The translations under genes and the position numbers were made by a program. The notes below the pieces were generated by a model, which searched no databases, was not told where the DNA came from, and worked only from the letters and a program-made list of their open reading frames with translations. Positions 34,303 to 42,263 of a stretch of 64,000 bases of DNA are shown one piece after another (position 1 is the stretch's first letter; each line of letters opens with the position of its first letter). The stretch lies in contig NZ_PPXX01000002.1 in the NCBI RefSeq assembly GCF_021655075.1, positions 1 through 64,000 on the forward strand, read 5' to 3'. This DNA is from Clostridium sp. Cult2 (GTDB lineage Bacteria > Bacillota > Clostridia > Tissierellales > Tepidimicrobiaceae).

Positions 34303-34346
34303 AAAAAAAATTGGGAACAGGCAATTAAATCTTTGCCTATTCCCAA
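34303..34346 (-). terminator. Intrinsic terminator after the HesB-like selenoprotein gene
   Basis: On the minus strand GGGAATAGGCAA and TTGCCTGTTCCC form a stem followed by a T-run. It lies just past the TAA at 34358. Outside the mgtE leader and this terminator, the region 34047-34357 shows nothing else. Confidence 0.9.
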
Positions 34347-34357
34347 ATGAAATATTG

Positions 34358-34654
34358 TTAACAGGATGAAACTCCTCTATCTGGTATTATTGTAAATCCT
34401 TTTCTTAACCAATTATCACTATAATCTATAGTGAAAGCTCCAAAACTCTCTGTTAAATAATCTTCTATTAAAAATGTATATTCGCCTACATCTATTGAGG
34501 CATCTCCTTCTTTAAGCTCATCCAGAGCCAATCCAAATGATGGACCACCTCAACCATAGCCTGCGATATAAATTCTTAAAGGTTTTTTATCCTTTCTTGA
34601 ATCCAATACTTTTTTAAGCTCTTTTTGAGCTGTTTCAGTTAATTCAATCTTCAT
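34358..34654 (-). CDS. HesB/IscA-like selenoprotein (in-frame UGA read as selenocysteine)
   Basis: Reading from the ATG at 34654 (RBS GGGAGGAAAG) gives 98 codons ending in TAA, with one in-frame TGA at codon 35 (34550-34552). The product reads MKIELTETAQKELKKVL ..., then RIYIAGYG-U-GGPSFGLALDE. In IscA/HesB-like homologues the UGA position is Cys (GYGCGGPSFG), the usual hallmark of selenocysteine, and HesB-like is an established bacterial selenoprotein family. Homology continues unbroken past the TGA, which argues against a pseudogene. A small stem with a GG-containing loop lies downstream of the UGA. Likely role: iron-sulfur or redox chemistry; unproven for this family. Its own terminator follows. 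Confidence 0.85.
34515..34529 (-). promoter_or_regulatory. Candidate bacterial SECIS stem-loop
   Basis: On the minus strand GGCTC-TGGAT-GAGCT folds into a five-pair stem (one G-U) with a GG in the loop. The loop begins about 28 bases after the U of the UGA, inside the coding region, as bacterial SECIS elements do. Bacterial SECIS elements vary greatly, so this is tentative. Confidence 0.45.
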
Positions 34655-34732
34655 TATACTTTCCTCCCACTATTATTTTACTATATTCTATATACCCCAC
34701 CATGGTATCCTTAATCATTGTATATCATAAAT

Positions 34733-34775: not shown

Positions 34776-35159
34776 TTACATTGCTCTTCCTGGGATTATT
34801 ACATCTATTATACCTATTACTAAGGCTCCAATTATTGCTCCCCATACGGATATATTAAATCCTGGTACTATAAATTTGGTAGCATAAAGAATAATTGCGG
34901 CTACAATAAAACCAGTAATGCCTCTACCAAAAGGTGTTGCATTTACTCCAGTAAATTTCTGTATTAGATAGTCTAATAATGCTATGACTACCGCCGCTAA
35001 AATTAAGCTCCATAAATTATTTATTGAAAATCCGGGTGTTAGGAATGCTGCAATTCCAACTACTATTGCAGTAACCAAAATTCTTATTAAAATCTCACCT
35101 ATATCCCAATCTCTAGTTCTATTGTCTGTCCTCTCTCTATTTTTGTCATTATTATCCAT
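34776..35159 (-). CDS. Four-helix membrane protein, phage-holin-IV/YvlD family
   Basis: A 127-residue protein with a charged N-terminus (MDNNDKNRERTDNRTRDWD) and four hydrophobic helices. Features are FLTPGFSINNLWSLILAAVVIALLDYLI (about 39-66) and a second similar unit, KFIVPGFNISVWGAIIGALVIGIIDVII. The internal duplication around PGF is typical of the superfamily called phage holin IV, which includes the non-phage envelope protein YvlD. There are no phage genes around it, so an envelope role is likelier than lysis. The start is the ATG after AGGAGGTGAAGAA. Confidence 0.75.
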   Translation of the reverse strand: MDNNDKNRERTDNRTRDWDIGEILIRILVTAIVVGIAAFLTPGFSINNLWSLILAAVVIALLDYLIQKFTGVNATPFGRGITGFIVAAIILYATKFIVPGFNISVWGAIIGALVIGIIDVIIPGRAM

Positions 35160-35316
35160 TTCTTCACCTCCTGATATAAGAATAACCATTTTAAAGTTTT
35201 TTATACATTTTAAAATAAATATTTAATTTATTCTGAACATATGATATATTTATTATGTAAAAGGTATATAATTTATGGTAAGATATAAATTAAATCATAT
35301 ATAAGGAGGCAACAAA

Positions 35317-35502
35317 ATGGAAATCACTAAAGATATGTTGGTAGGAGAAATAATTCGTAATAAACCAGAATCAGTAGATACCCTATTAAGATTTGGATTA
35401 GGATGTATTGGATGTCCTGCCAGCCAAATGGAAAGTATAGAAGAAGCCGCAATGGTTCATGGTATAGATTTGTCTCAACTGTTAAAAGCTTTAAATGAAT
35501 AA
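35317..35502 (+). CDS. DUF1858-domain protein with CxxC
   Basis: A 61-residue protein of the DUF1858 family, also found as a domain in hybrid-cluster-associated redox proteins. It has ITKDMLVGEIIRNKPESVDTL and a Cys pair in GLGCIGCPASQMESIEEAA, which could bind a metal or act as a redox disulfide. AAGGAGG precedes the ATG and a terminator follows. Function unknown. It faces the glutaredoxin-like gene. Confidence 0.8.
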   Translation: MEITKDMLVGEIIRNKPESVDTLLRFGLGCIGCPASQMESIEEAAMVHGIDLSQLLKALNE

Positions 35503-35504
35503 AA

Positions 35505-35545
35505 AATAATCTCCCCTTTTAATTAAAAGGGGAGATTATTTTTAC
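35505..35545. terminator. Bidirectional terminator between DUF1858 and glutaredoxin-like genes
   Basis: AATAATCTCCCCTTTT and AAAAGGGGAGATTATT form a perfect 16-bp stem with a four-base loop and a trailing T-run. Confidence 0.93.
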
Positions 35546-35558
35546 TTACCTAATTACT

Positions 35559-35789
35559 CTATTTGTCTAGCATTTGATCTATTCTTGCTTTGTCAAAACC
35601 AACTATTTCTTCTCCATCAATTAATAGCACTGGAACACCCATATGTCCCATACTCATTAACTCTTTTCTTGCATCTTTATCTGTTTGAATATTTTTTTCT
35701 GTATAAGATACTCCTTTTTCATCTAAATAGTCTTTTGCTGCTATACAATATGGACAAGTATTGCTTGTGAAAATTACTACATTTGACAT
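35559..35789 (-). CDS. Glutaredoxin-like protein (CPYC)
   Basis: A 76-residue thioredoxin-fold protein with the active site NTCPYCIAAKDYL near residue 12, the cis-Pro motif GVPVLLIDGEEIVGFDKARI, and no extra domains. Such small glutaredoxin/NrdH-like proteins reduce disulfides, with thioredoxin reductase or glutathione-like thiols as donor. AAGGAGGAA precedes the ATG. Partner not evident. Confidence 0.9.
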   Translation of the reverse strand: MSNVVIFTSNTCPYCIAAKDYLDEKGVSYTEKNIQTDKDARKELMSMGHMGVPVLLIDGEEIVGFDKARIDQMLDK

Positions 35790-39891: not shown

Positions 39892-41841
39892 TTATGATAT
39901 GGTAGCACCCGATTCTATATCTTCTAGAGTAGATACAAGGGTTAATTTGCCATCTTTTTCTGCTGCTAAGATCATACCTTTTGATTCTTCTCCTCTAAGC
40001 TTAATTGGTTTTAAATTAGCTACTATTACTACTTTTTTCCCTGATAAATCTTCTGGTGAATAGAATTTTTTAATACCTGATACTACCTGTCTTTCTTCTT
40101 CTCCAACTTTTAATTTTAATATCAATAGTTTATCTGCTTTTGGATGGTCTTTAGCTTCTATTATTTCTGCTACTTTTAATTGAATTTTATCAAAATCCTC
40201 TATGGTTATAAATTCTTCCTCTTTTGATTCAGTTTCAATCTTTTTATCTTCCATTTTTTTATTAATCCTCTCCTCAATTAATTTTTGATTGGCTTCATTT
40301 AACCTATCTAATTCTTTTTCAATATCCAATCTTGGGAATAAAACTTGGCCTTTTTCTACCTTAGTTCCTGGTTTTATTTTACCCCATTCTTTTGTATCTT
40401 CCCAGTTAATATTATGGTTAAATCCAATTTGCTTTAATATCTCATTAGAAGTCCTTTCCATAAATGGATTGAGAAGTAAACCTATAATCCTTATACTCTC
40501 AGTTAAATTATACAATACTGTGTCAAGTCTTTCCTTATTCTCTTCTTTTGCTAGTATCCATGGAGTGGTTTCATCTATATATTTATTTGTCCTTCTAACC
40601 ACTTTCCAAATTTCTTCTAAAGCTTGACTGTAATTTAATTCATCCATATTATATTCTACCTTATCTGAGGCCTTTATGGCTAATTCTATTAAGGAATTAT
40701 CTATATCTTCCTCTTTTGTTGGATTGGGAACTATTCCCCCATTATATTTTTCTACCATGGTGATGGTTCTACTTACTAAATTTCCTAAATCATTAGCTAA
40801 ATCCGAGTTCAACCTCTGTATAAACTTTTCTCTTGAGAAAGATCCATCTTGACCAAAGGAAAATTCTCGTAGTAGGAAGTATCTAAAGGCATCTATCCCA
40901 TAAAGTTCTATTAATGGTTCTGGGTAGATTACATTCCCTTTAGATTTTGACATCTTATCGTCTTCAAATAATATCCAACCATGACCAAATACCTTGTGAG
41001 GTAATTCTAAATCTAATGCCATTAACAAGGCAGGCCATATGATAGTATGGAATCTTACTATTTCTTTTCCTACTAAATGGACATCTGCTGGCCAGTATTT
41101 CCTAAATTTTTCATCCTTTTCTGTACTATAACCTAAGGCAGTTATATAGCATGATAAAGCATCTATCCATACATATACCACATGTTTAGGGTCAAAAGGT
41201 ACCTTTATCCCCCAATCAAAACTAGTTCTAGATACACATAGGTCTTCTAGTCCTTCTTTTAAGAAATTGTTTAACATTTCATTTTTTCTGGATTCTGGCT
41301 GCAAAAATTGTGGATTTTCCTTATAAAGTTCAATTATTCTATCCTTATACTTGGATAGTTTGAAAAAGTAAGCTTCCTCCTTTGCTAGATGAACTTCTCT
41401 ACCACAATCTGGACATTTCCCATCTACCAATTGACTTTCAGCCCAAAAGGATTCGCAAGGAGTACAGTATAATCCTTCATAATTGGATTTGTAAATATCT
41501 CCTTTTTCATATAATTTTTTAAATATCTTTTTAACTGCTTTTTCATGTTCCTTGTCAGTAGTCCTTATGAATTCATCATAAGACACTTCTAACATATTCC
41601 AAAGTTTTTTGATATCCTTTACTATTCCGTCTACATATTCCTTTGGCTCCATATTGTTTTCCTTAGCTTTCTCTTGAATTTTTTGGCCATGTTCGTCAGA
41701 GCCAGTTACAAGATAGGCATCATAACCTTGGGCTATTTTAAATTTTTTTAATGTGTCTGCTGCTACCGTTGTATAGGTATGACCTATATGAAGATTATCA
41801 CTTGGATAATATATAGGTGTAGTAATATAAAACTTTTTCAT
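39892..41841 (-). CDS. metG: Methionyl-tRNA synthetase
   Basis: Class I synthetase of 649 residues. The HIGH signature is in TTPIYYPSDNLHIGHTYTTV, KMSKS in DDKMSKSKGNV, and the zinc-binding Cys pairs in YCTPCESFWAESQLVDGKCPDCGR. The C-terminal tRNA-binding domain (about 545-649) has FDKIQLKVAEIIEAKDHPKA. GAAGGAGG precedes the ATG. Expression should depend on uncharged tRNA-Met through the T-box at 41874-42131. Confidence 0.97.
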   Translation of the reverse strand: MKKFYITTPIYYPSDNLHIGHTYTTVAADTLKKFKIAQGYDAYLVTGSDEHGQKIQEKAKENNMEPKEYVDGIVKDIKKLWNMLEVSYDEFIRTTDKEHEKAVKKIFKKLYEKGDIYKSNYEGLYCTPCESFWAESQLVDGKCPDCGREVHLAKEEAYFFKLSKYKDRIIELYKENPQFLQPESRKNEMLNNFLKEGLEDLCVSRTSFDWGIKVPFDPKHVVYVWIDALSCYITALGYSTEKDEKFRKYWPADVHLVGKEIVRFHTIIWPALLMALDLELPHKVFGHGWILFEDDKMSKSKGNVIYPEPLIELYGIDAFRYFLLREFSFGQDGSFSREKFIQRLNSDLANDLGNLVSRTITMVEKYNGGIVPNPTKEEDIDNSLIELAIKASDKVEYNMDELNYSQALEEIWKVVRRTNKYIDETTPWILAKEENKERLDTVLYNLTESIRIIGLLLNPFMERTSNEILKQIGFNHNINWEDTKEWGKIKPGTKVEKGQVLFPRLDIEKELDRLNEANQKLIEERINKKMEDKKIETESKEEEFITIEDFDKIQLKVAEIIEAKDHPKADKLLILKLKVGEEERQVVSGIKKFYSPEDLSGKKVVIVANLKPIKLRGEESKGMILAAEKDGKLTLVSTLEDIESGATIS

Positions 41842-41873: not shown

Positions 41874-42131
41874 AAAAAAGCCTCCATCTCTTTATATAGA
41901 GACGAAGGCTTGAAATTCGTGTTACCACTCTAATTCGTTTAAACTTCGCAGTTTAAACCTCCATAGGTTACATATTATAACCTGGCACATGGTAACGGGT
42001 GCAACCGTCACAATCTACTTGATTTCGACTGTAAAGTTAAGGGGCCATGTTCAGATTAACCTTCAACGCTGGATTTCACCTGCCCCAGCTCTCTAAAGTA
42101 TCAGATTAAACTTACTCTTCCCTTCATTACC
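41874..42131 (-). ncRNA. T-box leader (methionine) upstream of metG
   Basis: The minus strand has the full T-box layout: a 5' stem I region, then GAGTGGTAACACGAA (T-box, 41916-41930), then a terminator with stem AAGCCTTCGTCTCT / AGAGATGGAGGCTT and six T ending at 41874. The specifier candidate is AUG at 42048-42046 in GAACATGGCC. The UGGU in the T-box would pair with an ACCA tRNA end. Uncharged tRNA-Met should favour the antiterminator and turn metG on. Confidence 0.93.
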
Positions 42132-42263
42132 TTTATTATATACTGGTTTATTTACTTAATCAATATACAGGAAAATTTTAGTTTTGTCAAGATAATTTAA
42201 TTATTGTGACCAGCCTATTCTTAATACATATAATGATATTAGCTATATAAAAGGAGTGATTTT

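Follow-up and report, generated by a model that had tools for sequence, protein, structure and literature searches.

On the minus strand of the window, the whole 64,000-nucleotide stretch of Clostridium sp. Cult2 DNA analyzed here, a reading frame extends from an ATG (34654-34652) to a TAA (34360-34358) and contains one in-frame TGA. Does this codon mark the end of a damaged gene, or is it decoded as selenocysteine (Sec), and if so, what might the product do? A reading made from the sequence alone (the “sequence-only reading”) had described an ATG-to-TAA frame with a good ribosome-binding site (RBS) and a terminator, and had placed the single TGA at the cysteine of a GYGCGGPSFG motif. Both descriptions hold, and the strand, left unstated at that time, is minus (Table 1). 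With the TGA translated as Sec, the motif around residue 35 is GYGUGGPSFG. RBS-like sites also precede every homologue of this gene, designated hesB(U), in the bacterial family of the host. Terminator-like sites in the region are more frequent than expected (3 found versus 0.2 expected). Promoter-like sites occur there at chance level (5 found versus 4.8 expected) and were left unused.

Table 1. Coordinates of hesB(U) and associated features in the window.
Feature	Position	Strand	Basis or description
hesB/iscA-like gene, predicted selenoprotein	34358..34654	-	98 residues, U35; translation with TGA read through
UGA codon 35, predicted to be read as selenocysteine	34550..34552	-	TGA/Cys-codon column of 122 aligned homologues
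Ribosome-binding site GGGAGGA	34662..34668	-	Sequence reading; graded good
Intrinsic terminator	34311..34346	-	14-pair stem, 8-base loop, T tract
SECIS apical hairpin GCUC-UGGAU-GAGC	34516..34528	-	Frozen synonymous sites, compensatory pairs, absent from Cys forms

When open reading frames were scanned with translation table 11, the gene appeared only as a 57-amino-acid fragment with a TTG start, corresponding to its downstream part. Plain gene calling thus splits hesB(U), and the prediction that ordinary callers would miss it proved correct. Note that TGA is still a true stop codon in this DNA, where it terminates 4 of the 45 long open reading frames in the window. This use of TGA, together with the shorter TTG start downstream, is what might be expected if the gene were broken, either because UGA acts as a stop followed by a remnant or because the TGA is a sequencing error. 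Comparison with relatives makes such a reading exceedingly improbable. The gene was found in 18 of 20 genomes of the family, and every copy has a single TGA, always in the same codon; close relatives that carry names are [Clostridium] ultunense, at 90% identity, and Clostridium sp. Cult1, at 89%. The same TGA is shared by 18 independent family genomes, and it is present in 94 sequences from the order. Values of dN were lower than dS on either side of the TGA for all computable family pairs, mostly by several-fold, which indicates purifying selection on both parts of the frame. A match to PF01521 spans the TGA (34.9 bits, cut-off 26.3), in line with the earlier statement that coding similarity continues to the true stop, and the invariant Cys98 lies on the far side of this codon.

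For the order-wide sample, 249 genomes were searched with NF038090 and 122 distinct homologous frames were aligned. At the column of codon 35, 94 frames carry TGA, 28 carry a Cys codon (TGC or TGT) and 0 carry any other; homologue frames were read through TGA but not through TAA or TAG, so that TAA or TAG at this column would escape detection, while sense codons would be seen. The in-frame UGA occupies the U of the UxGP position, and the alignment with homologues that the sequence-only reading had proposed gives only Sec or Cys at residue 35. selA is present in 87 of the 88 sampled genomes that have the Sec form, the exception (G025) being 71% complete. Twenty-four genomes have the Cys form only, and selA is absent from 2 of them. 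A tree of the 122 sequences needs 7 Sec/Cys changes, and its starred branches force at least 4. Because this tree was built from few columns and has long branches, no direction is claimed for these changes.

Several loci carry more than one copy of the HesB-like gene. Tandem pairs consisting of a Sec and a Cys form were seen at L049, L056 and L065 (genomes G032-G034) and at L120 (G244), and the Cys copies in these pairs have no SECIS hairpin. At L088 (G226:C41:13985-15129) three copies lie in tandem; each has TGA at the Sec position, and two are strongly diverged.

A SECIS element had been anticipated in the stretch 34490-34552, and a hairpin was found inside it by pairing and conservation. 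The sequence GCTCTGGATGAGC (window 34528-34516) begins at nucleotide 25, counting from the T of the TGA. In the bacterial SECIS model, a loop of 3-9 nt tops an upper stem of 4-16 bp at a distance of 16-37 nt from the UGA, with a G in the first two loop positions and a folding energy of -7.5 kcal/mol or lower (PMC13188914). Here the hairpin conforms to this model in its loop (UGGAU), its stem (GCUC/GAGC) and its spacing, with 25 nt separating the UGA from the loop. The small hairpin folded alone gave -6.4 kcal/mol, which is above the -7.5 limit, and inclusion of flanking stems gave -11.9 and -19.8 kcal/mol, both within it. The stability of the SECIS region showed no excess over shuffled sequence (z about -0.25). 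Since folding energy provided no support, conservation was used instead.

The codons GCT CTG GAT GAG are identical in all 18 family sequences, and adjacent synonymous sites vary. Among Sec forms of the order, CTG is used at the SECIS Leu site in 83 of 88 sequences, compared to 5% of the other Leu codons of the same genes, and GAG is used at the SECIS Glu site in 78 of 90, compared to 22% elsewhere. In 13 sequences one stem pair shows a compensatory change, U-A replacing C-G. Complete pairing of the four-pair stem is possible in 83 of the 90 Sec forms and in none of the 28 Cys forms. Standard pairs account for 96% of cells in Sec forms and 40% in Cys forms; 2000 shuffles gave 92%, with a maximum of 94%. 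Of the 90 Sec forms, 76 have UGGAU or UGGAC as the loop. In the diverged Sec forms L132, L146, L150 and L121 the usual hairpin sequence is altered, and by eye a stem seems to be restored through different bases or a shift in register, as in GUUUC-GGA-GAAAC.

The genome of the host (2.63 Mb, 99.7% complete) encodes a tRNA-Sec (selC; 73.8 bits, anticodon TCA), and selA, selB and selD share one contig. All four genes named as a check by the sequence-only reading are therefore in the same genome as hesB(U), and the suggestion that the organism makes selenocysteine is supported. selD, immediately 5' of selA and selB, also codes for a selenoprotein, its in-frame TGA falling in SSGUAAK (locus L018, 1399-2439, minus strand, contig 65), and the tRNA-Sec is located ∼6 kb further on. 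Homologues with Cys at residue 35 could be taken to mean that the UGA is read as ordinary Cys, or as Trp, through a suppressor tRNA or an altered code, with no involvement of selenium. We consider this very unlikely, given that long open reading frames still end in TGA, that the whole Sec machinery is encoded in the genome, that TGA forms accompany selA, and that TGA forms, unlike Cys forms, retain the hairpin. Pseudogene formation, sequencing error and a changed genetic code were each rejected on the comparative evidence. From these sequence comparisons, hesB(U) is almost certainly a genuine HesB/IscA-like selenoprotein gene, in which UGA codon 35 would be read as selenocysteine by means of SelB, tRNA-Sec and the downstream SECIS hairpin.

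The product is predicted to be a single IscA-fold domain. An AlphaFold2 model had a mean pLDDT of 86, with low confidence for the C-terminal residues 96-98, and its best Foldseek matches were IscA with a [2Fe-2S] cluster (1x0g) and SufA (2d2a). Together with the PF01521 match, these place it in the Fe-S_biosyn/IscA fold of HesB-like selenoproteins, and the fold is shared with the A-type Fe-S carriers IscA, SufA and ErpA (1x0g, 2d2a, 2apn). In sequence alignments with 2apn and 1nwb, Sec35 lines up with the conserved central Cys and Cys98 with a C-terminal Cys, which we take to be the first Cys of the C-terminal CxC pair of the carriers. Sec35 and Cys98, the latter being the last residue, are both invariant in the 18 family sequences. 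Unlike the A-type carriers, the protein has Sec in place of Cys and has no second C-terminal Cys. In place of three Cys ligands there are one Sec and one Cys, and the third ligand is absent because the protein ends at Cys98. Scores for the carrier equivalogs were far below their cut-offs (ErpA, 36.9 versus 117; SufA, 23 versus 136; IscA, 16.6 versus 150).

A simplified A-type carrier could be built from these parts. Sec35 would substitute for the central cluster-binding Cys, Cys98 would occupy the position of the first Cys of the CxC pair, a dimer might bind iron or an Fe-S cluster through both residues, and the bound iron or cluster might then be passed on. Computation shows the reading frame, Sec/Cys exchange among homologues, conservation of the SECIS element, genes for the Sec machinery, a match to the fold and, as described below, presence as a single copy. 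Given that hesB(U) encodes a selenoprotein, we rate the chance that it has an A-type-like carrier role as about even; the absence of the third ligand and the low confidence with which residues 96-98 were modelled weaken this role.

Gene order around hesB(U) in the family is glutaredoxin, a DUF1858 protein, a holin-like membrane protein, hesB(U) and an MgtE transporter; one locus ends short of the glutaredoxin gene and another has MgtE further off. In the window, positions 34776-35789 encode a glutaredoxin, a holin-like protein (PF04020) with four transmembrane segments and, on the opposite strand, a DUF1858 protein. At some distance, a T-box leader (41895-42136, minus strand; 126 bits, gathering threshold 93) lies just upstream of a gene at 39892-41841, presumably that for methionyl-tRNA synthetase.

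The main rival to a carrier role is a selenoprotein whose selenol performs redox chemistry (reduction of thiol-disulfides or peroxide) instead of serving as a metal or cluster ligand, possibly with the neighboring glutaredoxin and DUF1858 protein. This may be so, but we hold it to be doubtful. The majority of functionally unassigned selenoproteins are similar to thiol oxidoreductases (reviewed in PMC13188914), the glutaredoxin and a two-Cys DUF1858 protein adjoin the gene in the family, and one of the three Cys residues of the carriers is absent. Set against these points, Sec sits exactly at the cluster-ligand position of the IscA fold and there is no adjacent CxxU or UxxC motif. Elsewhere in the order, certain families share this arrangement wholly or in part, and others have hesB(U) without it. 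Since several families that keep hesB(U) have no linkage to glutaredoxin and DUF1858, this linkage was dropped as a functional clue and treated as gene order only.

As stated in the sequence-only reading, HesB-like proteins are an established selenoprotein family. They were described by 2005-2006 (PMC1088965, PMC1794560) from anaerobes, including Alkaliphilus among Clostridia (PMC1794560), and UxGP is given as their motif in a 2026 review (PMC13188914). Mutagenesis and 75Se labelling identified a HesB-like protein of M. maripaludis as a selenoprotein, its function being unclear (PMC11097638). It is of the same kind by description but archaeal, archaeal SECIS elements being of another type than bacterial ones (PMC13188914). 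With its IscA/HesB domain and Sec in a UxGP motif (here UGGP), hesB(U) joins the HesB-like selenoproteins already known. Its scores are nevertheless below the curated cut-offs of NF038090 (IscA_HesB_Se; 77.2 versus 85, E-value 1e-21) and TIGR01911 (HesB_rel_seleno; 56.2 versus 66.35, E-value 4e-15), and in a six-frame search of the genomes of the order no sequence passed the NF038090 cut-off. The protein should thus be considered HesB-like in kind but outside both models as their limits are set, and its branch is one that they fail to cover. In the genome paper of C. ultunense, selA, selB and selD were reported and tRNA-Sec was not found, and the only selenoproteins named are those of glycine/betaine reductase (PMC5924567), so hesB(U) seems to have been missed there. 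What appears to be new amounts to two minor points, the score of the gene below both NCBI cut-offs and its apparent omission from that paper, and hesB(U) represents a well-supported, conserved HesB-like branch beneath the present cut-offs.

The main interest of hesB(U) is that its genome appears to encode no other member of this protein family. By family searches, on which genome-wide statements about the host rest, its product was the sole PF01521 protein found, and exactly one PF01521 protein, that with the TGA, is present in every one of the 18 genomes of the bacterial family that gave a match. A survey of A-type carriers reported many Firmicutes without any (PMC2682760). We tentatively suggest, as a possibility we would not favor, that a whole family of anaerobic Firmicutes has a selenoprotein as its sole A-type-carrier-like protein, and that iron or Fe-S transfer through a Sec-Cys pair might there depend on selenium. 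Organisms that have the Sec form alone offer a good setting for testing what HesB-like selenoproteins do, as no Cys paralogue is available as a substitute.
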